A stretch of 64,000 bases of DNA, taken from Natrinema salsiterrestre. Lineage in GTDB: Archaea > Halobacteriota > Halobacteria > Halobacteriales > Natrialbaceae. Within the stretch, counting starts at the first letter, position 1, and each line of letters opens with the position of its first letter. Below are positions 12,074 through 42,433 of the stretch, in pieces. The translations under genes and the position numbers were made by a program. The stretch is from assembly GCF_029502005.1 (NCBI RefSeq), contig NZ_JAMQOT010000003.1, positions 1 through 64,000 of the forward strand, in the 5' to 3' direction. The notes beneath the pieces were generated by a model. It did not search any database. It was not told the DNA's origin and worked only from the letters and a program-made list of their open reading frames with translations.

Positions 12074-12829
12074 GTGAATTATACGCCGTTCAAACTGGAC
12101 GAGCGAACACAGGATCTCACCAATATCAGGCGTGCGTGGCCCGGTACGGGTGCGATTGAGCGTTCGGATGGCACGATGGAAGCGTATCTTGAGATCGATC
12201 CCGGAAACATGGACTTCGCGATGTCCGGTGACTGGGCACAGATACAGCGTCTTGGGGAAGAATTCGCGAACAAAGAACTCGATTTCACTCTCACGTTCCA
12301 CGCGACGACTCGCCCGTTCCCGGTCGCAAAGCTGATCGATCGAATTGACGGACGGCTCGCCGACAGTGACGTGAAGCAGAATCCGGTTTTCAGGGAGTTA
12401 CTCGAGGAATATCGCGAGCAACGTCCTCGAGAGCTCGCGGGAACCCAGCAGATTCGATACTTCATCGGTGTTCAAGTCGATCCGTTCGAAGTCTACGACC
12501 GCTATCAGGACGAACAATCTCCTGCAGAGAAGCTCACCTCATTCCCGATGGTCGGCTTTCTCGTCAATCCGTTCGTGACTCGTCGGAACGATATGGCCGA
12601 CGCGGAGATCCGTGCGGCCATGTTCGAGAAACTCGAGAACCGATGTCGCATCCTCCAGACGGAGTTCGTCCAGAAGGTACCGGGGTGGTCGGCACATCGA
12701 CTCACGACGGTCGAACTGTTCGTCCTCTCGATGGACTTCTGGAACAGTGAGAAACATGAATACGACGACGGAGAGGATGCGATTCGCGATCATCCGACGA
12801 TCGATCACCAGCGGAGGGCCGATCAATGA
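12074..12829 (+). CDS. VirB4-partner protein of haloarchaeal conjugation-like module
   Basis: 251 residues from GTG (VNYTPFKLDERTQ). The frame stays open upstream to 11915 without an ATG or GTG, and that stretch (VYRYYCKRPRFTYS) looks like protein, so the true 5' end may be lost or use an unusual codon. The middle (AMSGDWAQIQRLGEEFANKELDF, QIRYFIGVQVDPFEVYDRY, VGFLVNPFVTRR) resembles the N-terminal accessory region of TraC/VirB4-type proteins. It overlaps the ATPase gene by ATGA at 12826, which suggests a complex at the membrane. Confidence 0.6.
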   Translation: MNYTPFKLDERTQDLTNIRRAWPGTGAIERSDGTMEAYLEIDPGNMDFAMSGDWAQIQRLGEEFANKELDFTLTFHATTRPFPVAKLIDRIDGRLADSDVKQNPVFRELLEEYREQRPRELAGTQQIRYFIGVQVDPFEVYDRYQDEQSPAEKLTSFPMVGFLVNPFVTRRNDMADAEIRAAMFEKLENRCRILQTEFVQKVPGWSAHRLTTVELFVLSMDFWNSEKHEYDDGEDAIRDHPTIDHQRRADQ

Positions 12830-14955
12830 TCTCGATGCGTATGCTTTCGATCGTCGATCAACTGCAGGGTTCGCTTCCTGATTCGGGGACCCAGGCCGGA
12901 CTTGCGTTCTATATTGGAGCAACGGCACTGGTCACGCTTCTTGTAGCGATTGCATGGGACTACTGGCGAGCGGAGGACGTTGCGGAGGTCGAACTCGCGG
13001 ATCTCCTCGAGGAGACGACCCTGAACGATGGAAGTGAGGAAGGTGAGGTCCTCGACGAAATCGCGGAGCAGCACCAGCACGTTATCGCACCCGCAGCGAT
13101 CGAGTGGGATACGCGGACCGCTCGTGTTGGCGATCAGTGGACATCAACGCTCTACATCGCCGATTATCCCGACTATCCGAAGGATGGCTATCTGACCGAC
13201 CTCTTCGAGCTTACGGATATCGAGTTCGATCTGACGGTTCACGTCACACCGAAGAGCCAACAGCAAGCTCGAGACGAACTCCAGCGAGTTGCGGACGATC
13301 TTCAGGCCGATGCAGATCTCGAGCGCACTGTCCGTGGCAGCTATCTCCAAGAGCGAGCCAACGAGGCGCTGTCGACGTACAAAAGCGTCGAGAACGGGAG
13401 CCGCGTGTTCGATCAGGGGATGTTCATTACGGTGCGTGCGGATTCTCGTGAGGAGTTGCGCGAGGACGTTCGCGTCATTCGCAGTCGGCTTCGTGAACAA
13501 CCAGCCGGGCTCTCGCCGAAGACGGCGATTTGTAAGCAGGATCTGGCAATTCAGGCTGCAGCCCCGATTGGCGCAAATCCGTTCGGTCGGGAGGCCACTG
13601 CGTTGGGTGGGGCGATTGGTGCACTGCTTGCCTCGCCGCACAACGCGACGATTCTCGAGGACGGTGGCGTCGAATTCGGCGCTCACTGGAAGAATCAGAG
13701 CCCGGTCGCGATCGACCCGTTCGCTCGAGAGAACGGCTATGCGATGTTCACGATCGGCGATCCGGGATCTGGCAAATCGTTCGGCTCGAAACAGAACTTC
13801 ATTCGGTCGATCGAGCAAAGCGAGGACCGAATCGGGATCATTCTCGAGCCGCTGAACAACTGGGCCGGTGTCGCCGAAGCACTCGGTGGTGAACGGGTTA
13901 CGATCGGCGGGGATATGGGACTGAATCCGCTCGAGATCAAACCCACGCCCGAACGCGTCCAGCAGGCAATGGGTGAGGACGCGAGTCCGTACCGGGAAAA
14001 GCTCGATAGCGTGATGAGCTTCCTGTCGAATTACTTCGCGCTCCGTGGGATTTCACTTGGGGATCGGCGTACCACGTTGGAGACGGCGATCGAGAAGGCA
14101 TACGGCAGGAATGGCATCACCGACGATATCGCGACTCACCACAAGGAGAGTCCGACGATGCGAGACGTCCTCGATATCCTTGAGGAGATGGTCGAGACGC
14201 CGACCGAATACGTCGTCCGGACGGACGAAGAGGCGACGAAGATTCGAGATGATGCGACGTGGCTTATCGACCAGTTACGGCCGTTCGCAGAAGACGGTCG
14301 CTACGAGAACCTGGGTCGTGAGACGGCGTTCGATATTCGCGACGAGAAGGTGATTTATCTCGACCTCGCCCAGCAAGAGGGGAGTCTCGGTGGGAGTACG
14401 AGTTTGATTATGCAACTGCTGATCTCGCTGGTCTACGAGCGCGCAAAAGAGACGGACAAAGAGGTCGTCTTCGTCATCGACGAGGCTCGCTACATCATGC
14501 AGGATGCAGCGAGTCTCGAGTACCTTGAGATCGTCTTTCGGCACCACCGTCATCACGACCTCTCGATTCGACTTGTGACGCAGACCGTCGACGAGTTCTT
14601 CCAGCATCCAGAATCAGAGGCGATTATCGATCAATGTGCGATCAAACAGTTTCATCATCTCGATGGCATGGATTGCGAGTGGGCCGACGAGTTCGGACTC
14701 AATTCCGCACAGATGCGGTTCATCCAAGAGGCTGTGCCTGGCAATGACCGAACGGGCTATTCTGAAGCGCTCGTCGGCGTCGACGGTGAGTGGCGTGGAA
14801 TCGAAGTCCGAGCGATGGAAGACGAGACGGCAGTGATCGACTTCGAACCCAAGTCACAGTCTCGGTCGGAGTTGCCCGGCCAGTCTGAGGATAGTGGTGA
14901 TGTTTCTGACCGCACGACGGGTGGCGGTCAGCGTTCCCTCGGGCACTCTGACTGA
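12826..14955 (+). CDS. VirB4/TraC-type transfer ATPase
   Basis: 709 residues. One membrane segment lies near 25-45; the following 250 residues are acidic and helical, and then comes a RecA-like motor with Walker A GDPGSGKSFGSK (about residue 313) and Walker B VVFVIDEARYIMQ (about residue 547). Sensor-like LVTQTVDEFF follows. The FtsK-HerA/VirB4 fold drives conjugative DNA transfer or pilus assembly, and haloarchaeal plasmids and integrated elements encode such proteins. No relaxase, coupling protein or pilin is visible nearby, so the module looks incomplete. Confidence 0.8.
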   Translation: MISMRMLSIVDQLQGSLPDSGTQAGLAFYIGATALVTLLVAIAWDYWRAEDVAEVELADLLEETTLNDGSEEGEVLDEIAEQHQHVIAPAAIEWDTRTARVGDQWTSTLYIADYPDYPKDGYLTDLFELTDIEFDLTVHVTPKSQQQARDELQRVADDLQADADLERTVRGSYLQERANEALSTYKSVENGSRVFDQGMFITVRADSREELREDVRVIRSRLREQPAGLSPKTAICKQDLAIQAAAPIGANPFGREATALGGAIGALLASPHNATILEDGGVEFGAHWKNQSPVAIDPFARENGYAMFTIGDPGSGKSFGSKQNFIRSIEQSEDRIGIILEPLNNWAGVAEALGGERVTIGGDMGLNPLEIKPTPERVQQAMGEDASPYREKLDSVMSFLSNYFALRGISLGDRRTTLETAIEKAYGRNGITDDIATHHKESPTMRDVLDILEEMVETPTEYVVRTDEEATKIRDDATWLIDQLRPFAEDGRYENLGRETAFDIRDEKVIYLDLAQQEGSLGGSTSLIMQLLISLVYERAKETDKEVVFVIDEARYIMQDAASLEYLEIVFRHHRHHDLSIRLVTQTVDEFFQHPESEAIIDQCAIKQFHHLDGMDCEWADEFGLNSAQMRFIQEAVPGNDRTGYSEALVGVDGEWRGIEVRAMEDETAVIDFEPKSQSRSELPGQSEDSGDVSDRTTGGGQRSLGHSD

Positions 14956-14960
14956 GAGCT

Positions 14961-16178
14961 ATGAATGACGAAATAACTGTCCCGGAGAGGCTGCGTACTC
15001 GAGACCAGTGGATATGCTGGAAGGAAACCAAGCGCAACGGCGAGACGACCAAGATCCCGATCGATCCACAGACAGCGGGGTTCGCATCGACAACGGATGA
15101 AGGAACGTGGAGCAATTTCGAGAGCGCTCTCGAGTGTGTGGAGTCGGGTTCGACGCCAGTCGATGGACTCGGGTTCGTGTTCACGAAGTCTGATTCGCTT
15201 GTCGGAGTGGACCTGGACGACTGTCGTGACCCGGACACTGGACGGCCAACGGAGCAAGCAAAGACGATAGTCGGTCAGTTAGACTCGTATACGGAAGTCT
15301 CGCCATCAGGGACTGGCTATCACGTTCTGGTACGTGGTGAGCTTCCCGAGGGTCGTAATCGATGTGGCCACGTCGAGATGTACGACCACGCCCGATATTT
15401 TACTGTTACCGGCGATCTCGTCTCGGGAACACCAACGCAAATCGAGTATCGGCAACGCGAACTCGAAGAGGTTCATGCGACGTACGTTCGTGAGAGCGAT
15501 GACGGCGTTCCTGAGGATTCTACGCCGGAGTCAGGTTCGTCACTTTCCCTCTCGGACGACGAATTACTCGAGAAAGCACGAAACGCGTCAAATGGCGATA
15601 AATTCGACCGTCTCTGGAACGGGTCGACTGTTGGCTATACGAGTCAGTCGGAGGCGGATATGGCGTTGTATTGTTTGCTCGCGTTCTGGACAGGTGGCCA
15701 TGCCGTCCAGATAGATCGATTGTTTCGGCGATCCAAATTGGACCGTCCGAAATGGGGAGAGGTACACTATGCGGATGGGTCGACGTATGGTGAGAAGACG
15801 ATCGCTCGAGCGATTGAGCACACCTCCGAGTTCTACGAGCCATCCGAACCGAGACAGAGTGAAGTAACGGCTCCAAGTGTAGAGTTCTCGCGAGATCGTG
15901 AGCAGATCTATCTCGAAGAGCGGGGTTCGCTGCTTCGAAAACAGACGATGGCCCTCGAGACACAACTGGCCGAAAAGACCGCGCGTATCGAACGGCTCGA
16001 GCGCCGTCTCGAGACATATGAAGGTCGATCTCCGATTCGAGAGCAGACGTCTGATCCCTCGAGAGAGAGAGAGAGACGCGGCAGAAATCTTTTCTTCGGC
16101 GGTTATGGGGTGTTTTCGGATGATTGCAGAGGAAGCGGGGTGATAAGTAAAACCTTATTTTACTTGCACCCATGGTAG
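14961..16178 (+). CDS. Primase-like plasmid replication protein, C-terminus frame-altered
   Basis: 405 residues. The N-terminal half has the primase-polymerase-like pattern WICWKET, KIPIDPQT, DGLGFVFT, GVDLDDC, SPSGTGYH and ARYFTVTGD. A helical domain (about 200-280) with ALYCLLAFWTGG resembles the helix bundle of NrS-1-type primases; a coiled coil occupies about 310-350. It starts 5 bp after the VirB4 gene. The last 35 residues follow a GA repeat and look out of frame: the frame two bases back ends more naturally in KSFLRRLWGVFG at about 16123. Confidence 0.65.
   Translation: MNDEITVPERLRTRDQWICWKETKRNGETTKIPIDPQTAGFASTTDEGTWSNFESALECVESGSTPVDGLGFVFTKSDSLVGVDLDDCRDPDTGRPTEQAKTIVGQLDSYTEVSPSGTGYHVLVRGELPEGRNRCGHVEMYDHARYFTVTGDLVSGTPTQIEYRQRELEEVHATYVRESDDGVPEDSTPESGSSLSLSDDELLEKARNASNGDKFDRLWNGSTVGYTSQSEADMALYCLLAFWTGGHAVQIDRLFRRSKLDRPKWGEVHYADGSTYGEKTIARAIEHTSEFYEPSEPRQSEVTAPSVEFSRDREQIYLEERGSLLRKQTMALETQLAEKTARIERLERRLETYEGRSPIREQTSDPSRERERRGRNLFFGGYGVFSDDCRGSGVISKTLFYLHPW
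16061..16076 (+). repeat. (GA)8 dinucleotide tract inside the primase-like gene
   Basis: Eight GA units. Loss of one unit would switch the downstream frame from the present tail to one ending KSFLRRLWGVFG. Such tracts are prone to slippage, so this may be a mutated or phase-variable end. Confidence 0.8.
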
Positions 16179-16980: not shown

Positions 16981-17676
16981 GGTGCTGTTTCGTTAAGCGT
17001 GAAAAGTGAGGCGGCACGATTTTGTGGTGCTCTATGCCAAAAACCGACCGCTTCAGTGGGTCTAACGACTGGGCCGATTTGAGATTTGTGGAGCGAGAGC
17101 GGAGACCACGTCAGCTGATGGAGCTCGGTATTCGACTCCATCTTGCTGGACTACCGCTTTCGAATACTGTTTGACAATTGGAGAAGCTTGGTGTCAAACG
17201 CAGTCGGAAGGCAGTTCACGTTCGGGTTCACAAGTGTTATCTACAGCCGGCAGTCGATGAGAATCTGAATCACGTCACGCTCGACGAGACAGTGATTCAG
17301 CTTGATCAACATCGCTATTGGCTGTACACTGCTGTTGATCCGCAAACGAACAAAACCCTCCATATACGGCTCTACTCGACCACTACAACCGCTTTGGTAG
17401 AACGGTTCTTGCAGGAACTCACTGAGAAACATGACCTAGACGATGCCGTGTTTCTCGTCGATTCAGATCCATGGCTCAAAGCTGCACTCCATCACCGTGG
17501 CTCCGATTTCGATATGAAAAACATGGAACCCGGAATGCCGCCGAATATCTATTCAAAGAGATAAAATGGCGCACTACTCAGTTTAGAAATTATTTCAGAA
17601 ACGCCGATCCAGCAACCGCTGAACCATGGTTGCAGAGCTCTGCATACTGCTGGAACCAGCTAATCTGAACAATGTC
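16981..17676 (+). mobile_element. IS6-family element, decayed copy
   Basis: 696 bp between ends GGTGCTGTTTCGTTAAG (16981) and the complement of GACATTGTTCAGATTAG (17660-17676). The outer bases of the two ends correspond (G-TGTT core) and resemble the ends of the element at 23862. No matching target duplication flanks it, so it may have recombined with another copy after insertion. The first 60 nt match the inverted element end at 1-127. Confidence 0.8.
17034..17668 (+). pseudogene. IS6-family transposase, nonsense plus frameshift
   Basis: The frame starts MPKTDRFSGSNDWADLRF and stops at a TGA near 17173, where homologues read on (SNTV then QLEKLG). The same frame continues with HVTLDETVIQLDQ and VFLVDSDPWLKAAL, carrying two of the DDE acidic residues, then shifts by one near 17500 to RFRYEKHGTRNAAEYLFKEI and ends SAYCWNQLI. 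Both lesions inactivate it. Confidence 0.88.
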
Positions 17677-17747
17677 GTATAAAATAGAGATATATTTTAC
17701 ATGTTCCTGAAAATTAAGATACAGGTCGGCTCTATACGGCGACGCTT

Positions 17748-18662
17748 ATGCACGAAACCGGCCGTGAATCCGACCCAGAAATAAAAACTAATTGCACCCG
17801 AGGATATCTGATAGATACCGTGAGTCCTTCGGCGAATGTCAGACGCGAGGCGACGTTCTTTCTCACGCTGGATCTAGAGTGTGATTTCGGGACGGCGCTG
17901 GAGGTGAACAGTTACGAGGCGGCGAGGCGACTCGACGCGCTGCTGGGATTGCTCGAACCCCGAGACGTGCCGCTGACGGTCTTTCTCCAGACGGAAGTGC
18001 TAGATGAGGTTCCGGAAGTCGTCGAGACGCTAGTATCGGCGTCTGTCCCGGTTGAGGTCCACGCTCACTCGGAGACCCACCCCCGGAGGGAGAACGCAGA
18101 CGTCCGGTGGGAAGTCGAGACGAGCGTCGAACGGGTCCGCAAGACGTTCGAGACGGACCCGCTGGGCTATCGCTTTCCCGACGGGACGATAGCCGACGGA
18201 GACTATCGGATCCTCTCGGGGGCCGGCGTCGATTTCGACGCCAGTGTGTTCCCGTCGCTATTCCCCGGTCGATTCAACAACCTCAGGTCCCCCCGGACGC
18301 CGTTCGTCCACGACTCCGGGCTCGTCGAGATCCCCTTCAGCATTTACTCGCAGTACCTGCCGGTCCCGGTCTCCCTGTCGTATCTCAAGCTCCTCGGTCG
18401 ACCCTTCGAGTCGGCGGTGACTTGGAATCCACCCGAGACGATCGTCTTCGACATGCACATGCACGACCTCGTTACCCCGGAGACGAATGAGTTGTCAGCA
18501 ACCTACCGGTTCGTCTACGGATGCAACCGGGATCAAGGTCCAGACTACCTCCGTCGCCTGCTTGACTCGCTCGCAGGGCGTGGCTACGAGTTCGAGCTGC
18601 TCTCGACGTTGTACCACGACGTGGCGACGATGTCCGATCATTCGGGGGTCGGCCGTGAGTAA
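17748..18662 (+). CDS. Polysaccharide deacetylase family protein (NodB fold)
   Basis: 304 residues. NodB-type motifs are seen: FLTLDLECDFG (metal/catalytic Asp), HAHSETHP (metal His pair) and YRFPDGTIADGDY (motif 3). It should remove N- or O-acetyl groups from a sugar chain or a sugar intermediate. A GTG at 17820 (VSPSANVRREAT) is an alternative start close to the conserved fold. It is the first gene after the broken IS6 and overlaps the formyltransferase gene by 8 bp. Confidence 0.8.
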   Translation: MHETGRESDPEIKTNCTRGYLIDTVSPSANVRREATFFLTLDLECDFGTALEVNSYEAARRLDALLGLLEPRDVPLTVFLQTEVLDEVPEVVETLVSASVPVEVHAHSETHPRRENADVRWEVETSVERVRKTFETDPLGYRFPDGTIADGDYRILSGAGVDFDASVFPSLFPGRFNNLRSPRTPFVHDSGLVEIPFSIYSQYLPVPVSLSYLKLLGRPFESAVTWNPPETIVFDMHMHDLVTPETNELSATYRFVYGCNRDQGPDYLRRLLDSLAGRGYEFELLSTLYHDVATMSDHSGVGRE

Positions 18663-19455
18663 CGAGCGTCCGTTTCGCGTGCTGATCATCACCATCCAAG
18701 AGTACTACTACATCCCACTCTTCTTGCGACCGGTGCTGGAGAGTGACGGGTTCGAGGTCTGTGGCGTCGTGACAATGCCGCCGACGCTGGGGAGTGAGAA
18801 CACGGTCAGGTTTGCGGCGGGGTTGTTCCGGCGGTTCGGACCGCGAGTCTTCGCGAAACACGTCCGGTTTTTTGGCAAGTACGCGCTCCGTGACTGCTTC
18901 GCCCGCTACACCGGCCGTGGACACGCCTACTCGGCCAGTACCCTCGCCCGTCGCCACGGCATCCCTCACCGGCACGTGACCGACGTCTCCAGCGAGTCCT
19001 TTCGCTCGTATGTCGAGTCGCTGGAACCGATGCTCGTGGCCTCGGTTGCGGCGACTCAGCGGTTCGACGGGGACCTACTTGCCATCCCCGAGGTGGGCGC
19101 AATCAACCTCCATTCTTCGCTGTTGCCAGAGTACCGCGGGGTTTCGCCGAGCTTCTGGACGCTCCTGCACGACGAATCCGAGACCGGGGTCACCGCACAC
19201 TATATGAACGAGCAGATAGACGGCGGTGACATCGTCCGCCAACAGTCGCTACCCATCGAGGACGACGACACGCTCCACTCGCTGAATCGCCGCGTCGCCG
19301 AGCGCGGGTCGGAGGTATTGCTCGACGCCATCGGGGCGATCCGCGACGGGATGGTCGACCCGGAACCGATGGATGTCGACGGGGGATCGTACTACTCGCT
19401 GCCCGACCGGGAGGACGTGCGGGACTTCCTACGCTCGGGCAACCAGTTTTATTGA
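18655..19455 (+). CDS. Sugar N-formyltransferase (Fmt-type fold)
   Basis: 266 residues from GTG. The formyl-THF transferase core is clear: INLHSSLLPEYRGVSP holds the catalytic Asn and His, and EQIDGGDIVRQQ the catalytic Asp. It lacks the C-terminal domain of Met-tRNA formyltransferase, which fits action on an amino sugar. Coupled to the deacetylase upstream, it may formylate an amine freed by deacetylation; this is inference from order. Confidence 0.78.
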   Translation: MSNERPFRVLIITIQEYYYIPLFLRPVLESDGFEVCGVVTMPPTLGSENTVRFAAGLFRRFGPRVFAKHVRFFGKYALRDCFARYTGRGHAYSASTLARRHGIPHRHVTDVSSESFRSYVESLEPMLVASVAATQRFDGDLLAIPEVGAINLHSSLLPEYRGVSPSFWTLLHDESETGVTAHYMNEQIDGGDIVRQQSLPIEDDDTLHSLNRRVAERGSEVLLDAIGAIRDGMVDPEPMDVDGGSYYSLPDREDVRDFLRSGNQFY

Positions 19456-19601
19456 GAGGTGACCCCAGGGCCGCCCCGTAGGTCCGGGGGACAGAGGTGT
19501 TCTCTCCGATACCGATCACCAGTGGTGCCGCCCACCACGAGTGGCGTCCCGAACTCGAAACCTCGTAGGAGAACAACCAAAGCAGATAAACACGTAGTCT
19601 G

Positions 19602-19609
19602 AAAGGAGA
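19602..19609 (+). promoter_or_regulatory. Shine-Dalgarno site for carbamoyltransferase gene
   Basis: AAAGGAGA lies 4 nt before the ATG at 19614. Most genes here look leaderless or coupled, so a clear ribosome binding site supports a leadered transcript and this start. Confidence 0.5.
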
Positions 19610-19613
19610 TTGT

Positions 19614-21386
19614 ATGTACAGTCTCGGCGTAACATCTCCTGCAGTGGCCAACAACGCAGCGACGCTGGTCGGGGACGGCGAACTGCTCGCAGCCGCTGAG
19701 GAGGAGCGTTTCACGCGGAACAAACATGCCAGATTCACGCCGCCGGTTAACGCGGTCACCTACTGTCTGGAACGGGCGGGAATCGGACTCGAAGACATCG
19801 ACCACCTCGCCGTCGGGTGGGGGGTTGCACCCGAGGCACCGCTCACATCCGACCTTCACGGACCTTTACACCGTGCACATCGAACGCTGATGCCGGAGTT
19901 CCTGTCGACCCTCGCGGACCGGGACCCGGGAATTACCGACCGCGTCACGTACGTTAATCACCAGCGTGCTCACGCCGCAAGTGCGTATCGCGTCTCCGGG
20001 TTCGACGAGGCCAACGTGATCACCCTCGACGGTAACGGTGAGCGGTACGCGGGCCTTCTGGGCTACGCTGACGGGGATATTCAAGCGTTTGAACACGTCT
20101 CCATCTCGCAGAGCCTCGGGCATCTCTACGAGGAGGCCACCGAGTATCTCGGGTTCCGGAGACACCGGGACGAAGGTAAAGTGATGGGTCTGGCGAGTTA
20201 CGGTCAGCCAACATTCGATATTCCGAACGCGAGGTCTTCCCGACAGATGCTGAACCTGATCCAGCGAATGGGACTGGCGAAGGTTCCGCTGGACTTCGAG
20301 ACGCTCGCGTCCGTCTACGATGGCCTCCGACCGGTGCGACGACTCTCCGTGGCGGGCAAGTACCCGAAGACGCCGCTAGCGACGGGGGCGATAAACGCCG
20401 TTCTCCCCACCGAGATCAACCGGTCGCTCAGCGAGCGACTGTTCGATGACCCCTTCTACAACGGGGCAGGCGAGGCGCTCACCGAGACACACAAAAACCT
20501 TGCCGCATCGGTGCAACGCCGCGTCGAACGGGAGGTACTCGGACTCGTCGAGGACCTGGCGAAGCGGACCGGGTGTGGGAAATTCTGTTTCGCCGGTGGC
20601 GTCGCGCTCAATTGCGTCCTGAACAAGAAGATCCGGGCGAGCGAGTACGTCGACGAGCTTTTCATCCAGCCGGCGGCACACGACGCCGGAACGGCGCTTG
20701 GCGCAGCGCTGGAAGTCTCCTACGAACACGGCGAACGGCCAACGACCGTTATGGAGGACGTCTACTGGGGACCGGAGTACGAAGACGAGGTGATAGAGCG
20801 TGCGCTGGAGACGCGCGGACTCGCATACGAACGACCGTCCGACCCGGTCGGGGCGGCTGTCTCCGCGCTAGCCGACGACCAGGTTGTCGGCTGGTTCCAG
20901 GGGCGCATGGAGTTCGGGCCACGCGCGCTGGGCAACCGGAGTATCCTGGCCAATCCTTCGCGCGAAGCGATGAAAGATACGGTCAATGCAAAGGTCAAAC
21001 GCCGCGAACTGTGGCGACCGTTTGCGCCGTCGCTGCCCGCTGAAAACGTCGAAAGGCTGTTCGAAGACGCCGGCCCGTCTCCCTTCATGATACTGTCGTT
21101 TGACGTCGAGGAGGAGGCGACAGGAGAGATTCCGGCAGCCTGTCACGTGGATGCCACCGCCAGACCACAGACGGTGACACCGGACACGAACGAGCGCTAC
21201 TATGACCTCCTGACCCGGTTCGAGGCCGAGACGGGCATCCCGGCGGTTCTCAACACCTCCTACAACCTGGCCGGCGACCCGATCAACCGCGACCCGGGAA
21301 CGGCCATCGATACGTTCCTGTCCTGCGGGATGGACGTCCTCTGTCTCGGTGACTACGTAGTCCGCAAGGAATCCATCGACCGATAG
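19614..21386 (+). CDS. Carbamoyltransferase, NodU/CmcH family
   Basis: 590 residues. An ASKHA-like N-terminal domain (about 1-360: AAAEEERFTRNKHARF, NVITLDGNGERY, FAGGVALNC) joins a C-terminal YrdC-like domain (about 390-590: GWFQGRMEFGPRALGNRSI, VLNTSYN). Enzymes of this family transfer a carbamoyl group from carbamoyl phosphate, through carbamoyl-AMP, to a hydroxyl of a sugar or polyketide. Next to deacetylase and formyltransferase genes, an O-carbamoylated surface sugar is the likely product. Confidence 0.85.
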   Translation: MYSLGVTSPAVANNAATLVGDGELLAAAEEERFTRNKHARFTPPVNAVTYCLERAGIGLEDIDHLAVGWGVAPEAPLTSDLHGPLHRAHRTLMPEFLSTLADRDPGITDRVTYVNHQRAHAASAYRVSGFDEANVITLDGNGERYAGLLGYADGDIQAFEHVSISQSLGHLYEEATEYLGFRRHRDEGKVMGLASYGQPTFDIPNARSSRQMLNLIQRMGLAKVPLDFETLASVYDGLRPVRRLSVAGKYPKTPLATGAINAVLPTEINRSLSERLFDDPFYNGAGEALTETHKNLAASVQRRVEREVLGLVEDLAKRTGCGKFCFAGGVALNCVLNKKIRASEYVDELFIQPAAHDAGTALGAALEVSYEHGERPTTVMEDVYWGPEYEDEVIERALETRGLAYERPSDPVGAAVSALADDQVVGWFQGRMEFGPRALGNRSILANPSREAMKDTVNAKVKRRELWRPFAPSLPAENVERLFEDAGPSPFMILSFDVEEEATGEIPAACHVDATARPQTVTPDTNERYYDLLTRFEAETGIPAVLNTSYNLAGDPINRDPGTAIDTFLSCGMDVLCLGDYVVRKESIDR

Positions 21387-21424
21387 GGGCCGTCCTCGTC
21401 CCCGCGAGTCGTCTACTGGAAAGT

Positions 21425-22435
21425 CTACCGACGATCCGGGTGACCACTGACAGCACGGACCAGATACACGAGGACACCCAGCGGTGCCATCCAGAGAAGG
21501 CCGAAACTGCGCTGGAGGAACACGAGGACGACGGCAGCCGGTTCGTCAACGCCGCCTACGACCAGGACGCTGACGCCGATGGTCTCCCCCGGGCCGACAC
21601 CACCGGGCGTCAGCGGAAGCACCGACGTGAGACTCATGCCGCCGACCAATGCGCCGGCCAGCGCCGGGCCGACCGACGTCCCGACGGCGCGTCCTAGCAG
21701 GAGAAACCCGACGACAACAAACAGCCAGCGGACTACGCCGAGGATGCTCACGACTCCGAGCATCCGGACCGGAGGCCGGCCGACGGCGGCCGTGAACTCG
21801 TCGACCGGCCCCGCGACGGCCGACGGGACCCACTCGACTGATTCCAGCCACCCAGCAAAATCGGGGCCGGTCCCGGCTCGCCAGCGGAGACCGGCAAGTG
21901 CAACCGCCAGACCACCGATGAGGACCGCTCCGGTGGCGAACGTTTTCACTGGCACGAGTTCCGACGCAACGGCGATGGATCCGGCGCCGAGCAGTCCCAG
22001 GACGACACAGAGGTCGACCGCTCGCTCGACGACGACCAGCCCCGCGAGCTCGGAGTGGCTCCTCACCTCGTAGTATCTGTCGACGAGCGCCGTCCGCGTG
22101 ACGTCACCGGCGTTTACCGGCAGCAACTGATTCAGAGCGTAAGAGACCGCGAGCACTTCGAAGGCGACCATGTTGTCCGACGGGTATCCCGCCGTTCGCT
22201 GAAGATGGTTCCAGCGCAGCGTCGCCGGCAGGTATCCGCCGAGAAAACAGGCGCCGCCCAAGAGATACCAGCGAATCTGGGTGGTGGCGAGCTCTCGGGC
22301 GACTGCTCCGGGGTCGGCCACGACGACCAGGATCGTAACAAGTCCGACCCCGACTGCCAGACCGCCGAGGCGTCGTAGCGGAATCCGTTCGACGAGCGAG
22401 CGCTCTCCGGTCGACCCTGCGTCTTCGGAAGTCAT
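21425..22435 (-). CDS. Flippase-like membrane protein (LPG synthase TM / UPF0104)
   Basis: 336 residues with about eight hydrophobic helices. The pattern LNQLLPVNAGDVTRTALV near residue 110 and LPLTPGGVGPGETIGV near residue 275 are those of the lysylphosphatidylglycerol-synthase-TM family. Members in archaeal glycan loci are proposed lipid-linked sugar flippases, though direct activity is shown for few. It overlaps the GT2 gene upstream by 4 bp (22432-22435), so one lipid-P-sugar may be made and flipped by the pair. Confidence 0.75.
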   Translation of the reverse strand: MTSEDAGSTGERSLVERIPLRRLGGLAVGVGLVTILVVVADPGAVARELATTQIRWYLLGGACFLGGYLPATLRWNHLQRTAGYPSDNMVAFEVLAVSYALNQLLPVNAGDVTRTALVDRYYEVRSHSELAGLVVVERAVDLCVVLGLLGAGSIAVASELVPVKTFATGAVLIGGLAVALAGLRWRAGTGPDFAGWLESVEWVPSAVAGPVDEFTAAVGRPPVRMLGVVSILGVVRWLFVVVGFLLLGRAVGTSVGPALAGALVGGMSLTSVLPLTPGGVGPGETIGVSVLVVGGVDEPAAVVLVFLQRSFGLLWMAPLGVLVYLVRAVSGHPDRR

Positions 22436-23745
22436 CGCCTCGCTCGCTGGCTGTTCAGTGCGTGGAGGATAATACTCGTAAACACCATGAACACGCCCAG
22501 GAGCGTAAAGAAGGTGGCAGTCACCGAAAGACCGAGCGCGAAGTCGGGGGTCCGGATGTAGTCGAAGACAGTCCAGTATCCGAAACTGAGACCCACTAAC
22601 AGTGAGAGCGATCCCGGCAGTCCGACGAACGTAATCGGCCGCTCGGTTTCGATGATACGAAGCAGGTTGTTCACGAGCCCGGTCCCATGGATGACCGGGT
22701 GGTGAGTGCTCGCGCTATCGACGTCGTAATCGATCTTGGTCGGCAATTCCTCGAGGGTCATGTGCGCCTTTGAGACGTGAAACAGGGAGTCGATGCTTAT
22801 TTCCATGCCGTCGCCGAGGCTGTACTCGTTCGCGAGGAGTTCGACCGCGGTGCGGTCGTACGCTCGAAACCCGCTCTGCGTGTCGGAGAGCCACCGCTGA
22901 CCGTTGAACGTCCGCAAGACGACGTTCGTCAGCGTGTTGATCACGCCCAGGCCGATGCGGCGCAACAGCGGAACGGAGTGACGACTCTCACCGCCGAACC
23001 GACTCCCGATCACCACGTTACATGCCTCGCTATCGAGACGCCCCAGCAGTGCCGGGATGTCGCCCGGGTCGTGTTGACCATCGCCGTCGATGAGAACGAG
23101 GCTGTTGACCTGCCACCGGTCCGCGAGGTCGAAGATCCGTTTCAGTGCTGCCCCGTAGCCCCTGTTGGTTCCGTGTGATACAACGAAGGCGCCGGCTTCT
23201 CGGGCACGCCGGGCCGTTTCGTCGTCGCTCCCGTCGTCGACTACGAGGACCCCGTCGGTGTGTTCGGCCGCCTCTCGAACGACCGTTCCAATGACTTCCG
23301 CCTCGTTGTACGCGGGGATGCCGACGAGGACGCCATCCCGGGCCAGCGACGCTCCCGGAACGGCGTTGACAGCGTACTCGTCGCTCTCCCTCGCTCGGGC
23401 CACGCTCTCTTCGATGTCCGGGACCGACTGAACAGGATCGACAAAGACCATCCCTGGGTACCCCCGCTCCCGGGCAGCCGAGCCGAGTCGTTCGCGTGGA
23501 CCGGTCAACGACGACTTCTCTTCCGTCGTCACGACCACTTCGGCGCCGGCATCGACCGCTGCATCGACGAGAGAACTGTCCGCGCCCAGTGGCGGGACCA
23601 CCAGCACGTCGTATCCCCGGGTTCGCGCCCGGACCGTGACCCCGAGGACCGAATCGACGGTGTCCCGTCCCACGACTATTCCGACGGCCGGTTGGTCGGT
23701 TGCAGCACCGTCGGGGACGTCGCCGACGTCATCTGAAGCCTGCAT
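22432..23745 (-). CDS. GT2 glycosyltransferase, polyprenyl-phosphate sugar synthase-like
   Basis: 437 residues in three parts: an N-terminal alpha/beta domain (about 1-140: VGIVVGRDTVDSVLG, VVVTTEE) of unknown role, a GT-A domain (about 141-360: VGIPAYNEAEVIG, VVDDGSDDE, LIDGDGQHDP holding the DxD site, and a DTQSGFRAY loop), and two C-terminal membrane helices. The GT part resembles dolichol-phosphate mannosyltransferase or glucosyltransferase. Its partner downstream is flippase-like. Confidence 0.82.
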   Translation of the reverse strand: MQASDDVGDVPDGAATDQPAVGIVVGRDTVDSVLGVTVRARTRGYDVLVVPPLGADSSLVDAAVDAGAEVVVTTEEKSSLTGPRERLGSAARERGYPGMVFVDPVQSVPDIEESVARARESDEYAVNAVPGASLARDGVLVGIPAYNEAEVIGTVVREAAEHTDGVLVVDDGSDDETARRAREAGAFVVSHGTNRGYGAALKRIFDLADRWQVNSLVLIDGDGQHDPGDIPALLGRLDSEACNVVIGSRFGGESRHSVPLLRRIGLGVINTLTNVVLRTFNGQRWLSDTQSGFRAYDRTAVELLANEYSLGDGMEISIDSLFHVSKAHMTLEELPTKIDYDVDSASTHHPVIHGTGLVNNLLRIIETERPITFVGLPGSLSLLVGLSFGYWTVFDYIRTPDFALGLSVTATFFTLLGVFMVFTSIILHALNSQRARR

Positions 23746-23861: not shown

Positions 23862-24560
23862 GGGCATTGTTCAGATTAGCTTGTTCCAGCAGTACGCGAG
23901 ACTCTGCAGCCATGTTTCGGCCGTTTCTGGATCGGCGTTTCTGAAGCAATTTCCAAACTGGTACGTTCGTCGTTTTACTTCCTTGAAGACACGTTCGATG
24001 CTGTTACGTTGACCGTGGCGTTCGTACTGATACTCGTAGCCACGGCGGTGGAGCGCGGCTTTCAGCCAATCTGCAGAATCGACGAGAAACACAGCGTCAT
24101 CGACGTCATGTTTCTTGCTTAGTTCGTCGAGGAAGATTCCCGTAAGCCCTGTATTTCTCGTCGGAAACAGCCGAACGTGGAGGAATTCGTTTGTCTCTGG
24201 ATCAACCGCTGCAAACAGCCAGTACCGATCGTCAGTGAGCTGGATCGCAGTCTCATCAACCGCCACGTGATCCGGTGATTTGTCGCTCTCGGGCTGTAAC
24301 TCTGCTTTTTGTATCCAATTATGGACGGTTGACCGAGCACGGTCGACACCAAACCTCTCTAAGACATGAACAGTATCCGAAAGCGAGAGACCGGCGAGAT
24401 GGAGGTGGATACTGAGCCGCATCAGCTCGCGCGGTGTCTGCTCGCGCTCCACAAATTCTAACTGAATGTTGCTACTAGGTAGCGTGAGGCGGCTGAATTC
24501 GGGCATGGACACCGCGAATTCCACCGCCTCGTTCCTTCAAACTCTAATCTGAACAGCGCC
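23862..24560 (-). mobile_element. IS6-family element, apparently intact
   Basis: About 699 bp with imperfect terminal repeats: GGCATTGTTCAGATTAG on the left and its counterpart GGCGCTGTTCAGATTAG read inward from the right. It is flanked by CGAGACGG on both sides. It encodes one full transposase on the minus strand. It interrupts the 3' part of a GT-C-type pseudogene; removing element and one repeat restores a continuous frame there. Confidence 0.88.
23871..24506 (-). CDS. IS6-family transposase
   Basis: 211 residues from MPEFSRL (an in-frame start at 24524 would add six residues). The DDE domain shows VAVDETAIQL, VFLVDSADWLKAAL and ERVFKEVKRRT for its three acidic residues, and a helix-turn-helix region (DTVHVLERFGVDRARSTV) precedes it. 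There is no visible lesion. It is the best model in this window for judging the broken copy at 17034. Confidence 0.92.
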   Translation of the reverse strand: MPEFSRLTLPSSNIQLEFVEREQTPRELMRLSIHLHLAGLSLSDTVHVLERFGVDRARSTVHNWIQKAELQPESDKSPDHVAVDETAIQLTDDRYWLFAAVDPETNEFLHVRLFPTRNTGLTGIFLDELSKKHDVDDAVFLVDSADWLKAALHRRGYEYQYERHGQRNSIERVFKEVKRRTYQFGNCFRNADPETAETWLQSLAYCWNKLI

Positions 24561-24568
24561 CGAGACGG
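24561..24568. repeat. Right target-site duplication of IS6 element
   Basis: CGAGACGG, the partner of the repeat at 23854. It implies simple insertion without later rearrangement. Confidence 0.75.
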
Positions 24569-25620
24569 GGCGTGAAACACTTAAGTACCGTCGAAACGAT
24601 ACCGTGCCCGACAAGCGCGTAGGCAAACAAGAGCGTGAAGACGCTTGCCAGGGCGCCCGGTAGCGCATGTTGTCCGGGACGAAAGTGACTACTGTCACGA
24701 ACAGCATACCGGCCAGCGGTGTCAGCCAGATTGCAAAGAGCCCGTCGTCCGCCCGGCTGAGCTTGGCCGCCGCGTACCCGCTCAGCAGGAACACCGACAC
24801 GTGACGAAGATGTTGAGGAACGCGAAGGTATGTCTGACCCGATCAGACAGTGAGTCGTGATAAACGGGAGGAAAAACACCCTTATCTTGACGATTACGTG
24901 GAGGACAAGGTGGTCGGCATTCACGAGCGCAAACATCCAGATGCTGTCCGCCGGGGCGGGGGTCGTAAGGCTAGGCTCCTTGTCCCACCTGAGTAGATAC
25001 TCCCTGTTCCCACACGGTTCTGATGGCCGAATTCCCAGCACACTGACTGGAGTACGCCCAGACAGCAACGGTGATGAGGAAAACAGCGATTGCACGCCTC
25101 CGGCTGGCAATGACGAGTACCCGCCTGGGAGCGTCGGACCGGACCACGTCGTGAACCAGCCACAGAAAGAGGATGAGCGGTCCGACAGGACGTGTGATTG
25201 TCATCCACACCACTGCCGCCCAAGCCAGCCACCGGTACTGCCTGTCGGAATGGGTGTAGTTGTACGTCAGCACGAACAACACGACTGCCAGCGCAAACGT
25301 GAACGTCGTCTTGGACATCACCCACTGGGTGAACCGAAACACCTCGTAGAAGATGGCCAGCGTCCCCCCCGCGATGAGATTTCCGGCCGTCCCCACACCT
25401 GTCTCACGGTGTAGAAGACGACGACCGTCGTTACTGACGACAACAGGACCTGGAAGAGAATCCACGCCAGTATCGATTCCGCCACGGGACGGAACGAACA
25501 GAATAATATCGTAAGTACTAGATTTTCCGCCCCGAACGCACCTCTGCCGACTATCAACTCGTCGACCGGGACTATTAAATATATGTCACATATCTCGATG
25601 TGAAATCTGCTGTCGTCCAC
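24561..25620 (-). pseudogene. GT-C-type membrane glycosyltransferase, decayed and IS-interrupted
   Basis: Pieces in three frames match the intact gene at 26255: WILFQVLLSSVTTVVVFYTV (about 25450), AIFYEVFRFTQWV with ITRPVGPLILFLWLVHDV (about 25330-25170), and WLTPLAGMLFVTVVTFVPD then FTLLFAYALVGHGI (about 24740-24600). Frameshifts separate the pieces. The 3' end is split by the IS6; before insertion the frame would have read on through 23853 to about 23775. It is a dead tandem paralogue. Confidence 0.78.
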
Positions 25621-26254
25621 CAGAATGAAGTTACCCTTGGAGGCAACTATTATTACTTTAGCTTCGGATAGTCGATCAATTCGTCAATTGGATTGTTTGA
25701 GGGACTGCTGAATTGCGAGATACAACTCAGGAAGAATGAAATAAGCGAGTTTTTCGTGATTCTACACGGAGAAACGGTGAGACTCCATCTGTCTTCACTT
25801 AAGATGAGAACCGAGAGATAACGCCGAGGGCGGGGGCGAACACGTCGTAATCAAGTAGAAACTCGAAGAAGAGATGCTCAAACAGCGGTATTGTCTCGGT
25901 AGCCGCGACATTCAGGAAGTTGTCTACCGAAGCTACGTCTTACAGGGCGTTGGTACTGCTAGACACAATTTCCAAACCCTGTGGCCTTCCACGGGAGGCT
26001 TCTATAGCATGCTCTTCATTGTAGTATAGCTCATCTGTCTCGTCTATGTCACCGTAGTAGGGCCGCAGGTGGAGACCAACGATAATCTCCAGTGTTTGTA
26101 CACACTTCAGTAAGCATATCTCTCAACTAACAGACTTTGTGAAGTACTGAATGTAGCGTCGCAGACGCCGCTCCAACTGCTGCACAGCGCGATCCACAGT
26201 ATTATGTACCGGCGCTTCGCTCGTGCCAGCTCTAAGGCAGCGTAAATCTCGGCG
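25621..26254. other. Spacer, AT-rich, with a transposase relic
   Basis: No intact gene. A 42-codon relic on the minus strand at 25799-25927 is listed separately. The remainder has many stops on both strands and no clear promoter or structured repeat. Confidence 0.6.
25799..25927 (-). pseudogene. Transposase N-terminal relic
   Basis: The minus strand reads VDNFLNVAATETIPLFEHLF and then FEFLLDYDVFAPA before a stop. This recalls, from memory, the N-terminus of a haloarchaeal transposase that begins VDDFLN and continues LFEHLxFEFLxEYDVFAPA. Nothing of the catalytic part follows. Confidence 0.4.
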
Positions 26255-27433
26255 TTAGTCCGTCTCGACTCCTGGGAGACGGTTTGCCACCGCGGCCAGT
26301 TGTTCGCCGCTGACGCTGTAACTGAACAATAACGCAAACACCGGCCCGGCCGGTGCTCGGTATCTGAAGCTGGCATCAACGAACGTCACCGCACAGACTG
26401 CTACGATCATTACGAGCGGCGTCACCCACATCTGGAACAACACGATTCGCTGTCGGTAGAGACGGAGACAACCGACCACGCTGCCGACGAGCAACACCGT
26501 CAGCCACATCGTGTTCCAGACTTTCCACTCACTCTGGAAGGCACCCTCTATAACTGGAATAAAGAATGCACCAACTCGGAGGAACGTGATGATGACTATA
26601 TGTTCGAAATTCCGTAGAATAAACATGAGACTGGACGACGACTCCACGACGGCGTACTCATGCTGAATTGGATAGGGAGCGTTTTGTGGGGGGCTGAACA
26701 CCGCTCCTTGCGCGTACAGTCCCCGGACAAGTGGGAACCAGTTTTCGACACTCAACAGGACGACGGCACCGAGCAGCAAAAACAGGCCAACACTGAGACG
26801 CCGACTCGGGACGAGATCGAACCGCTCGTAACGGCCGAACGAAACCATATCGTACAACAACCAACCGGCGACAATCGGCGCACCGAACGGGCGCGTTACT
26901 GCGAGCCAAAGACACGCTCCGTAGACGGCCAGTCGAGTGCGTCGTGTCGGGTTCTGCTGGAACCGTACAAGCGCCCACAGAGCTAGCGTAAGGATGAATA
27001 CGAACAGGATATCAGACAGGACCGTCCGCGTCCATCGAAACGTATCATACAGCAGTGCAAACGACAGTCCAGCTACGAGTGCCGTCCGCAAGTCAAAGAC
27101 TCGCCGTGCTGTATCGAACACCAATACCGAGGCGAGTGACACCAGCAGAATTTGGACAGCAACCCACGCCGGCCCGACATGACCCGGGAGTATTTCGGTT
27201 AGACAAAACGGCACCAGAAACCCGATTTTATAGATCAGTGTACCCAAGTGCTCCGGACCGGTCTGGCAAATGCTCAGATATTTTGAGGTGTCCGGTGGTG
27301 TAAAGTATACTAACGACCCGTTTCTTATAGATGGAACGAGCCAATGGACGAGATTAATCACGAGTGCGATGATAAAAACACTAGCATGGGCTATGATAGT
27401 TGATACGTATCGGTTTCGAATGGGTTCCACCAC
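26255..27433 (-). CDS. Polytopic membrane glycosyltransferase-like protein (GT-C type)
   Basis: 392 residues from GTG at 27433. About nine to eleven membrane helices; the first outer loop carries TPPDTSKYLSI with an acidic residue, and DTFRWTRTVLSD and WLAVTRPFGAP loops recall ArnT/PMT-like (GT39/GT83) glycosyltransferases using lipid-linked sugars. The frame is open to 27490, but a TATA box at 27458-27466 lies inside that extension, so the GTG at 27433 or 27430 is favoured. The neighbour at 24561 is its decayed paralogue. Confidence 0.65.
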   Translation of the reverse strand: MVEPIRNRYVSTIIAHASVFIIALVINLVHWLVPSIRNGSLVYFTPPDTSKYLSICQTGPEHLGTLIYKIGFLVPFCLTEILPGHVGPAWVAVQILLVSLASVLVFDTARRVFDLRTALVAGLSFALLYDTFRWTRTVLSDILFVFILTLALWALVRFQQNPTRRTRLAVYGACLWLAVTRPFGAPIVAGWLLYDMVSFGRYERFDLVPSRRLSVGLFLLLGAVVLLSVENWFPLVRGLYAQGAVFSPPQNAPYPIQHEYAVVESSSSLMFILRNFEHIVIITFLRVGAFFIPVIEGAFQSEWKVWNTMWLTVLLVGSVVGCLRLYRQRIVLFQMWVTPLVMIVAVCAVTFVDASFRYRAPAGPVFALLFSYSVSGEQLAAVANRLPGVETD

Positions 27434-27455
27434 TACATTTGCTTTTTGCGATGTG

Positions 27456-27468
27456 CTATTTATAACTT
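27456..27468 (-). promoter_or_regulatory. TATA box for the GT-C gene
   Basis: AAGTTATAAATAG on the minus strand, centred about 29 nt before GTG 27433; this spacing suggests a leaderless start and argues against the longer frame. Confidence 0.55.
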
Positions 27469-27482
27469 CGGCTGAATAGTCG

Positions 27483-27499
27483 CACCTCACTCTGAGGTG
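27483..27499. repeat. Short inverted repeat upstream of promoter
   Basis: CACCTCA, three bases, TGAGGTG: a perfect 7-bp inverted repeat about 20 bp upstream of the TATA box of the GT-C gene. The place and symmetry fit an operator, but no regulator is known. Confidence 0.35.
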
Positions 27500-30796: not shown

Positions 30797-33250
30797 ATGT
30801 CTACTGACGGCGACTCGGGCGATATCGCAGACGCGACGACATTGTTCCTTGAGGAACGGGATGACGGCGACTGCGTGCTCGAGGTCGTCTTGGAGGTTGA
30901 CGCTGAACATAAGACATGGACCTTCGACGACGTCGATCTCGATTCGGGAACGTTCGGGGAACTCGTCTCGCGTGGCATCGTCACGAAGGTCGACGGTGCG
31001 TATCAGGTCGCGGAGCCAGCAGTCGTCGAATCGGTGCTAACAGGCGAGGATCTCGAGGCCCCCGTGGACGATACCGGGCCCGCGATCGATTTCGATCAGT
31101 TCTGGAACGGCGTCGATCTCCGGACTTTCACGGCACTTCTGGGAGCCCTACTGGTAGTCGCAGCGGCTCGGATGACGGCCTTTCGGTCGGTGTTCCAGCA
31201 GGGCTACGTGGTCTCTCCGGGGAACGATCCCTACTACTTCCGGTACTGGATGGAAGACCTGCTCGCGAAATCGTCGGGACCGACGGACGTCGGTGTTCTC
31301 ACGGAGTCGTCGGGTGGGCTCTTCGGGACGCGACCGCTCGCACACGCGACCAATTGGTTCCTCGCCGAACTCCTCGGGGGCGGGCAGGCCGCCGCCGATA
31401 CGGTCGCGGCGTGGCTCCCAGTCGTCGCCTCGGTCGTACTCGGCGTTGTCGTCTACAAGTGTACCGTCTTGCTCACTCGAGACGTTCGCGTCGGGATCGC
31501 GTCGGTCCTCGTCTTCGCAGTGACGCCGATTCACGCCGTCTACACCGGGCTCGGATTCATCGATCATCAGCTCCACCAGTACCTCTGGCTCGGGATCACG
31601 CTCCTGACGCTGACGTGGCTCGCCGTCGATTTACAGCGGCGACTCGAGGGTGGACTGAGCGAGGCCGCAGCCGTTCGGGAACACCTCCAGTCGTCTGCAA
31701 CGTGGGCAGTCGCCGTCGTCTTCGGCCTCTCAGTCGCGGCCGGAATACACAGTTGGGGCGGCTCGCCGTTGTTGCTGATCCCGCTCGCGGCGTACGTCGC
31801 GCTCCGGGTTGCGGTGGACGCTCGAGCTGGCGTCTCGCCGGCGCGTGCGAATCTGCCGCTGCTCGCTGGTCTGGTACTCGGGAGTGCGCTCTCGCTGGCC
31901 CTCCACCACCGCTGGGGCTGGCACGCCGAGTTCGTTTCGACCACGCCGGCGCTTGTACTCGGCGGGTCGATCGCCGTGGTCGCGCTCGGCGAACTGTGGC
32001 GGCGGCTCGACGCTCATCTCGGTGGGTTGCTCGCGCTCGAAGCCCTCGTTGGAGCCGGCGGTCTCTACGCCTTCCAGCGGCTCCAGCCAGAGGACTGGGC
32101 GGAAGCGATGACCCGCGTCGACGACCTGTTTTTCCGCGAAGGGGCCACCGAGACGGCCTCGCTGTTCGCTACGGAGTACGCCGTCTTCTTCGGGCCGATG
32201 TACCAGCTCGGGATGGGATTCTATCTCGGGCTCGTTGTGCTCGGCTGGGTCGCGTGGGTCGCGTTCCGTCGGTACGAACCCGGCTGGTTGCTCGTCGGGA
32301 CGTATACCGGGTATCTGCTCGTGCTGGCCGGGATTCAGGTCCGCTTCGCCGGTCAGCTCGCGATCCCGCTGGCCGTCCTCACCGGATTCGGGCTGGTGCA
32401 TTTGCTCGCAGTCGTCGATCTGGCCCGGACGCCGGTTCCGTTCCGTGACTCGGAGTCGTCCCTCGAGGGTGGGTCTCGAGGTGGTGCGTCGGTTGCGACA
32501 GACGGTGGCGGGAACCTCGAGCCCGCGATTTCGATCCCTGACGGCCGAAAAGTCGGCTACGTGCTCGGGGTCGGGCTCCTCGTATTCGGGCTGAGTCTCA
32601 TCTACGTGCCCGGATTGACGGCTGACACGACCTACAGTGATGGACAGGTCCAGGCAGTGAGTGCGATCGACGACCACAACGAATCGGCGAACCGGAGCTA
32701 TCCCGGGAACTACGTGCTCAGCGAGTGGGGCGACAATCGGATGTACAATCACTTGGTGAACGGTGAATCCCGGAGGTATGGATATGCGCAGAGCAATTAC
32801 GACGAGTTCCGGACGAGTACCGAGCCGGACGGCTGGTATAACAAACTCGGCAATCGAAGGGGATACGTCGTCGTAACCGCCACCGAGGGAGACGTCCCCG
32901 CCGACAGCGCGCAGGCCCTGTTGCTCGAGGAGTACGGCGCAGGCGGGAACGGAACTGACGGCCTCGCACACTATCAGGCGATTTCGATCGCGGACGATGC
33001 GGTGGCGTTCGCAGTGGTTCCCGGGGCGAAAGTCCCGGTACGTGGATCGGCTGGAGAGAACGTCACCGTCACCACCGAGGTGTCCGTGTCGGGTGAGACG
33101 TTCACCTACGAGCGGGTGGTTGCGGTGGGCGCCAACGGCCGAGCCACGGTCAGGGTCCCCTACGCCGGCGAGTACACGGTCGGCGATCGGACGGCGACCG
33201 TGGAGGAGGCGGACGTGTTGAACGGGCAGTCGGTGGCGCTCGAAGAGTAA
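30797..33250 (+). CDS. aglB: AglB/STT3-family oligosaccharyltransferase variant
   Basis: 817 residues. An extra N-terminal domain (1-95: WTFDDVDLDSGTFGELVSRG, VTKVDGAYQVAE) reads like a winged helix. About eleven membrane helices follow (110-560), with the first acidic loop SPGNDPYYFRYWMEDL (metal-binding Asp) and FIDHQLHQYLWLG. The outer C-terminal part has SEWGDNRMYNHLV where the usual WWDYG stands, so the acceptor-site motif is strongly changed. STT3 enzymes move glycan from a dolichol carrier to Asn of surface proteins. This is shorter than the haloarchaeal AglB of about 1000 residues and is probably a paralogue. Confidence 0.78.
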   Translation: MSTDGDSGDIADATTLFLEERDDGDCVLEVVLEVDAEHKTWTFDDVDLDSGTFGELVSRGIVTKVDGAYQVAEPAVVESVLTGEDLEAPVDDTGPAIDFDQFWNGVDLRTFTALLGALLVVAAARMTAFRSVFQQGYVVSPGNDPYYFRYWMEDLLAKSSGPTDVGVLTESSGGLFGTRPLAHATNWFLAELLGGGQAAADTVAAWLPVVASVVLGVVVYKCTVLLTRDVRVGIASVLVFAVTPIHAVYTGLGFIDHQLHQYLWLGITLLTLTWLAVDLQRRLEGGLSEAAAVREHLQSSATWAVAVVFGLSVAAGIHSWGGSPLLLIPLAAYVALRVAVDARAGVSPARANLPLLAGLVLGSALSLALHHRWGWHAEFVSTTPALVLGGSIAVVALGELWRRLDAHLGGLLALEALVGAGGLYAFQRLQPEDWAEAMTRVDDLFFREGATETASLFATEYAVFFGPMYQLGMGFYLGLVVLGWVAWVAFRRYEPGWLLVGTYTGYLLVLAGIQVRFAGQLAIPLAVLTGFGLVHLLAVVDLARTPVPFRDSESSLEGGSRGGASVATDGGGNLEPAISIPDGRKVGYVLGVGLLVFGLSLIYVPGLTADTTYSDGQVQAVSAIDDHNESANRSYPGNYVLSEWGDNRMYNHLVNGESRRYGYAQSNYDEFRTSTEPDGWYNKLGNRRGYVVVTATEGDVPADSAQALLLEEYGAGGNGTDGLAHYQAISIADDAVAFAVVPGAKVPVRGSAGENVTVTTEVSVSGETFTYERVVAVGANGRATVRVPYAGEYTVGDRTATVEEADVLNGQSVALEE

Positions 33251-37666: not shown

Positions 37667-37676
37667 CGCACTGATA

Positions 37677-39247: not shown

Positions 39248-39431
39248 ATTCTCTATAGTGCGGCCTCCTACTAAAGGTATAGTGAAATATAGTGGAATGT
39301 CCCCTGACACGCAGCCAGTTGAGTTAGTCACCGCAATACGCGGTAAACCCATCATACTATTGGGTATAACTTAGGTGTGGCTAAAGAATAACACATGATA
39401 TGATTTCTGTCAATTAAAACCTGCAGAGGTA

Positions 39432-40595: not shown

Positions 40596-40648
40596 ACAGG
40601 ATGAGTAGTTTATGTCTATATTAATTCCCTCACTTAGTATTGGGGTCG

Positions 40649-41347: not shown

Positions 41348-41353
41348 CCTCAA

Positions 41354-42379: not shown

Positions 42380-42433
42380 AGACGTTTAGCTATACTATAT
42401 GAGTAAACCCTTTTCGGAGTATCTCTCTTCGAG

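Follow-up and report, generated by a model that had tools for sequence, protein, structure and literature searches.

A partly conserved haloarchaeal glycosyltransferase-deacetylase module with a plausible role in lipid-linked amino-sugar tailoring and an atypical carbamoyltransferase beside it

Results

Organization of the cassette and of its IS6 flanks

All five cassette ORFs were present and intact in the window, the whole stretch of 64,000 nucleotides of Natrinema salsiterrestre DNA that was analysed. The cassette genes are listed here together with the two IS6-family elements that flank them without being members of the cassette:

17083..17679, + strand: decayed IS6-family element (128-aa ORF at 17178-17564 plus remnant)
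17748..18662, + strand: CE4/NodB-family polysaccharide deacetylase (PF01522)
18655..19455, + strand: 10-formyl-THF-type N-formyltransferase (PF00551; GTG start at 18655)
19614..21386, + strand: class III carbamoyltransferase, NodU/TobZ family (PF02543/PF16861)
22435..21425, - strand: flippase-like LPG_synthase_TM / TIGR00374 protein of the AglD2/YbhN, UPF0104 kind (PF03706, TIGR00374)
23745..22432, - strand: GT2 of the polyprenyl-phosphate sugar synthase type (PF00535)
23862..24561, - strand: full IS6-family element (transposase at 23871-24524, 18-bp terminal inverted repeats)

The end of the deacetylase gene and the GTG start of the formyltransferase gene overlap by 8 bp, and the carbamoyltransferase gene begins 158 bp downstream of the latter with no overlap. 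On the opposite strand, GT2 lies upstream of the flippase-like gene and overlaps it by 4 bp (ATGA). An earlier note, made from the letters alone, had placed the deacetylase, formyltransferase and carbamoyltransferase in a row with the first two coupled by overlap, and both points were confirmed, the three being intact plus-strand ORFs with family matches. It had also described a convergent, coupled flippase-like/GT2 pair; this pair is convergent with respect to the first three genes and coupled by its overlap, but the two genes are co-directional with each other.

The remnant on the left stops ~70 bp upstream of the cassette, and 117 bp separate the GT2 start from the element on the right. There is thus an IS6 copy on either side, as the earlier note had said in placing the cassette exactly between two of them, but this framing does not delimit a mobile unit. 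In a composite transposon, the cargo is enclosed by a pair of nearly identical IS copies. An IS6 composite transposon was rejected here: the two copies are inverted to each other and share only 69.6% identity over 601 bases, the left copy has decayed, and the right copy is bordered on both sides by a CGAGACGGG repeat of its own. The two elements are most readily taken as independent insertions that came to lie on either side of the cassette by coincidence. Immediately before the left remnant, at 12826-16178, lie genes for a TraG/VirB4-like P-loop ATPase and, after it, for a protein carrying an NrS-1 polymerase HBD domain; they probably belong to a mobile or viral element. To the right of the full IS6 copy, two membrane-glycosyltransferase-like ORF regions occupy 24544-27490; the one at 26255-27490 is open (PMT_2) and the one nearer the IS6 element appears broken up.

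The deacetylase is linked to GT2 beyond chance

The metal and catalytic motifs of CE4 enzymes are intact in the deacetylase, namely the motif 1 Asp (D42xE44xD46), the HSxxH metal site (H105-S-E-T-H109), the R-x-P motif (R142-x-P144) and the distal His (H237), in columns that are mostly invariant or nearly invariant across 30 sequences. Its start codon is uncertain, and conservation is lacking over the first ~33 residues. The protein is assigned to the CE4/NodB family and is predicted to hydrolyse an N-acetyl sugar.

GT2 appears nearest to polyprenyl-phosphate sugar synthases. Its best NCBIfam models are PpgS (122 bits, cut-off 370) and AglJ (120 bits, cut-off 325), scores so far below the equivalog cut-offs that they indicate kinship only, and it has a weak match to ArnC (27.5 bits). 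Its N-terminus is extended by ~137 residues without a Pfam match, to which most full-length haloarchaeal relatives align, and its C-terminus is hydrophobic. In relatives of 590-620 aa, another ~170 residues precede this extension; such proteins were considered as AglD-like GT2-flippase fusions, and this was rejected, the extra part being N-terminal and the GT2 match lying at the C-terminal end. In Haloarcula, Dol-P-GlcA is the product of AepG, a GT2 of the dolichol-phosphate synthase type (PMC9943897).

Each of the five proteins was searched against 391 haloarchaeal genomes of the class, and the neighbourhoods were retrieved and compared for gene order. With close deacetylases and GT2s counted at E<=1e-60, a close deacetylase was found in 16 of the 391 genomes. 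All 16 also carried GT2, which was present in 106 of the 391 overall (hypergeometric p 3.5e-10). The two genes lay within 15 kb of each other in 15 of the 16 genomes and were separated by a gap of <250 bp in seven, and the linkage of the core genes is beyond chance. A close formyltransferase was absent from 12 of the 16 genomes, which argues that the deacetylase works without it and favours acetyl removal first, with formylation as an extra. Since the deacetylase accompanies GT2 even where no close formyltransferase is found, its most likely substrate is the product of GT2.

The formyltransferase pairs with the deacetylase and, once, with the flippase-like gene

The formyltransferase carries the Asn-His-Asp triad of 10-formyl-THF N-formyltransferases of the ArnA-N/Fmt fold. 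These residues (N151, H153 and D189) align with the NLH...D of ArnA, which is among the best solved relatives of the protein, and they are invariant in the 23 full-length relatives collected at E<=1e-30, window protein included. At 14 of these 23 loci, those of the window and of the seven relatives closest to it among them, the gene abuts a deacetylase gene, and locus L173 shows the identical 8-bp overlap. In more distant pairs (L193, L199 and L201-L204) the two genes come in the opposite order and the deacetylase belongs to a different subfamily, pointing to a functional link rather than block inheritance. Deacetylase and formyltransferase form a true unit that recurs, in company with GT2 and once with the flippase. 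At the remaining nine loci no deacetylase adjoins the formyltransferase gene; in three cases (L189:8857-9825, L196:8031-8954 and L197:6026-6943) the neighbour is a FolD-type methylene-THF dehydrogenase/cyclohydrolase gene, which may point to a part in one-carbon supply or to some other role for those formyltransferases. In viral contigs, no formyltransferase relative was found.

The product of 21425-22435 scores over the TIGR00374 cut-off (49.2 versus 43.2 bits) and is a predicted flippase of the TIGR00374 / UPF0104 kind. At E<=1e-15 it recurred in one other of the 391 genomes (G295), on the Haloarcula halobia plasmid NZ_CP119788.1, which was also the only close relative of the gene set in the plasmid collection. 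There, deacetylase, formyltransferase, flippase-like and sulfatase genes stand in line and are followed by a convergent GT2 on the opposite strand, an arrangement like that of the window except that it lacks the carbamoyltransferase and includes a sulfatase. All five genes together occurred in no other of the 391 genomes searched. The search for conserved order that the earlier note had proposed nevertheless found GT2, deacetylase, formyltransferase and flippase recurring in linkage in other haloarchaea, not scattered without order.

The carbamoyltransferase lacks the N-terminal HD motif of its family

The carbamoyltransferase shows the Kae1-like plus YrdC-like two-domain architecture, with PF02543 and PF16861 above cut-off, and aligns with TobZ/GdmN at E values down to 1e-95; against the NodU model it scores 150.9 bits, for a cut-off of 1000 bits. 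The iron ligands H116, H120, D139 and D357 are present, the first three being conserved in 109 of 111 proteins and D357 being read from the alignment (those of GdmN are H133, H137, D156 and D333; PMC9633730), and the YrdC-like GRMEFGPRALGNRS motif is retained. The N-terminal HD motif is absent: the protein reads A12-N13 (then N14) where 99 of the 111 proteins have His and 105 have Asp. The column that has lost its His is that of H27 in GdmN (FFHD aligned at 25-28), the general base of that enzyme, and the H27N substitution abolished activity (PMC9633730). In the Scalindua relatives, tandem paralogue included, W-N-N stands at the HD-motif position. A few other relatives without His in the motif column keep the Asp, and some of these have a His at an adjacent position. 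As the NN motif is common to the Scalindua paralogues, loss of the His is probably a shared subfamily trait and not a sequencing slip or recent decay. At the Scalindua locus (L001:10001-13203), the two carbamoyltransferases are arranged in tandem and both read ISWNN in place of HD.

Carbamoyltransferases were common in haloarchaea (87 of 391 genomes) but only distantly related to the window protein (36-45% identity by tblastn), and just one other genome (G332, locus L177) paired such a gene with a close deacetylase. When 111 proteins were placed in a tree, the haloarchaeal carbamoyltransferases sampled formed one clade, and the window protein fell outside it, with two Scalindua proteins; this grouping has a support of 97 but joins long branches and is not secure. 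The neighbours of the Scalindua carbamoyltransferases are GT, DegT, epimerase and PMT genes. When the bacterial carbamoyltransferase loci L001-L080 were searched by tblastn with the window genes, no deacetylase and a single weak formyltransferase (L046) were detected, so that these loci hold no bacterial copy of the set.

Discussion

The reading that fits these results best, to which we give a probability of about one half, is a lipid-linked amino-sugar tailoring module that swaps N-acetyl for N-formyl. From the gene content, the deacetylase and formyltransferase motifs and the linkage of the core genes, we infer a substrate, an order of steps, a membrane side and a flipping step. GT2 would load an N-acetylated amino sugar onto polyprenyl (dolichyl) phosphate at the cytoplasmic face, the CE4 deacetylase would strip the acetyl from the lipid-linked sugar, and the formyltransferase, in a subset of strains to which the window strain belongs, would cap the freed amine with formyl from 10-formyl-THF. 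The small AglD2/UPF0104-type membrane protein would then flip the product for surface use. The carbamoyltransferase may be a lineage-specific add-on, perhaps acting on the same sugar, with an altered active site and an uncertain reaction. Against this explanation, the core genes in the window are split between the two strands, so that co-expression is not a given, and the flippase link comes from one other locus. The nine formyltransferase relatives away from any deacetylase and the low PpgS and AglJ scores of GT2 also count against it.

In the ArnA/ArnC/ArnD and FlmF2/NaxD systems, a GT2 makes a polyprenyl-phosphate sugar on which a CE4-family deacylase then acts, and Arn includes the ArnA-type formyltransferase. 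The cassette could follow the ArnA-N / ArnC / ArnD logic, with the formyltransferase acting on an amino-sugar nucleotide, GT2 transferring the product to polyprenyl phosphate and the CE4 protein serving as deformylase to leave a free amine. The enzyme classes match and both the kinship of the formyltransferase with ArnA and the weak ArnC match of GT2 point the same way, but GT2 is far closer to PpgS and the cassette has no ArnB or ArnA-C, no aminotransferase or decarboxylase. A deacetylase that so often travels with GT2 in the absence of a close formyltransferase is unexpected of a dedicated deformylase; the formyltransferase looks like an optional, later step, which makes the swap of N-acetyl for N-formyl more likely and transient formylation unlikely, the order of steps itself being deduced. 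The end product might instead be a membrane glycolipid with a formyl-masked amine and not a glycan precursor. Glycosyltransferase-deacetylase-UPF0104 flippase trios are established in gpgSDF of P. aeruginosa and hexSDF of C. difficile, and a glycosyltransferase, a deacetylase and a UPF0104/MprF-like flippase acting as a unit are exactly the content of both. However, HexS (MGDG-synthase type) and GpgS (GT4) are from other glycosyltransferase families than the window GT2 with its polyprenyl-phosphate synthase matches, neither system has a formyltransferase, and their products are diradylglycerol or PG glycolipids. Formylation would moreover cancel the positive charge, and glycan clusters surround the window cassette and its relatives; a glycolipid system of this type is quite improbable.

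The carbamoyltransferase is the most unusual part of the cassette. The earlier note had envisaged a surface sugar that is deacetylated, N-formylated and O-carbamoylated; the first two modifications survive in the preferred N-acetyl to N-formyl swap, in line with the recurring pair found with GT2 and once with the flippase, and the third was not borne out. O-carbamoylation is the weakest step because the carbamoyltransferase is not a stable member of the set and has lost the general-base His, and canonical O-carbamoylation by the window protein appears unsupported and doubtful. There is somewhat less than an even chance that this protein is an unrelated neighbour of the four-gene module or an impaired enzyme, a reading that concerns a single gene and is compatible with the N-formyl swap. 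It accords with the single other genome pairing the gene with a close deacetylase, with the placement beside Scalindua outside the haloarchaeal clade and with the inactivity of GdmN H27N; yet the gene comes next on the same strand and encodes a long, intact protein, which retains its iron ligands and YrdC-like motifs and shares the NN motif with the Scalindua paralogues. More speculatively, and with little weight attached, NN-type carbamoyltransferases of the window and Scalindua might need no general base if their acceptor were an amine, and might N-carbamoylate the amine freed by the deacetylase; the lipid-linked sugar would then become a ureido sugar where it does not receive the formyl cap. 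For a subfamily without the His essential in GdmN, inactivity and a different acceptor are both directly testable.

Nod-factor tailoring gathers similar chemistries in one cluster, with a GT2 (NodC), CE4 de-N-acetylation (NodB), re-acylation of the amine (NodA), a class III carbamoyltransferase (NodU/NolO) and an exporter (NodIJ), and the order nodC-nodI-nodJ-nolO was seen in pNGR234a. The window differs in using folate-derived formyl where NodA uses fatty acyl, a GT2 of the polyprenyl-phosphate synthase type in place of a chitin synthase, a flippase-like protein in place of an ABC exporter, and a carbamoyltransferase that has no HD motif and falls far below the NodU cut-off.

We conclude that this is a real, partly conserved module, plausibly with a lipid-linked tailoring role and as a variant of known amino-sugar tailoring systems: a recurring haloarchaeal GT2-deacetylase pair with optional formyltransferase and flippase. 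Such a module would account for the making of de-N-acetylated and N-formylated surface sugars in archaea, and its step order is testable. Neither a GT2-deacetylase-formyltransferase module in archaea nor a carbamoylated archaeal glycan was found described in the open-access literature, which is weak evidence of absence. The earlier note's impression that nothing like this set is familiar for archaeal glycans needs correcting as regards N-formyl sugars, one of which is already known in haloarchaea: 5-N-formyl-legionaminic acid terminates the N-glycan on the S-layer of Halorubrum sp. PV6, where the candidate formyltransferase (PMC6137143), in contrast to that of the cassette, sits among Leg/Neu genes. 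The S-layer of H. hispanica carries 6-sulfo-QuiN, written without N-acetyl. Elsewhere in the window, an AglB-like oligosaccharyltransferase (STT3-like; 30797-33250), well under the archaeosortase-linked model cut-off, lies inside the glycan region. Positions 35937-43570 hold NeuB, PIG-L deacetylase, NeuD-like, formyltransferase, NeuC, NeuA, PseB-like and DegT genes, a predicted legionaminic/N-formyl nonulosonate set resembling the one in Halorubrum sp. PV6. The formyltransferase among these Leg/Neu genes (38300-39355), the second of the window, is 28% identical to that of the cassette over 173 residues.
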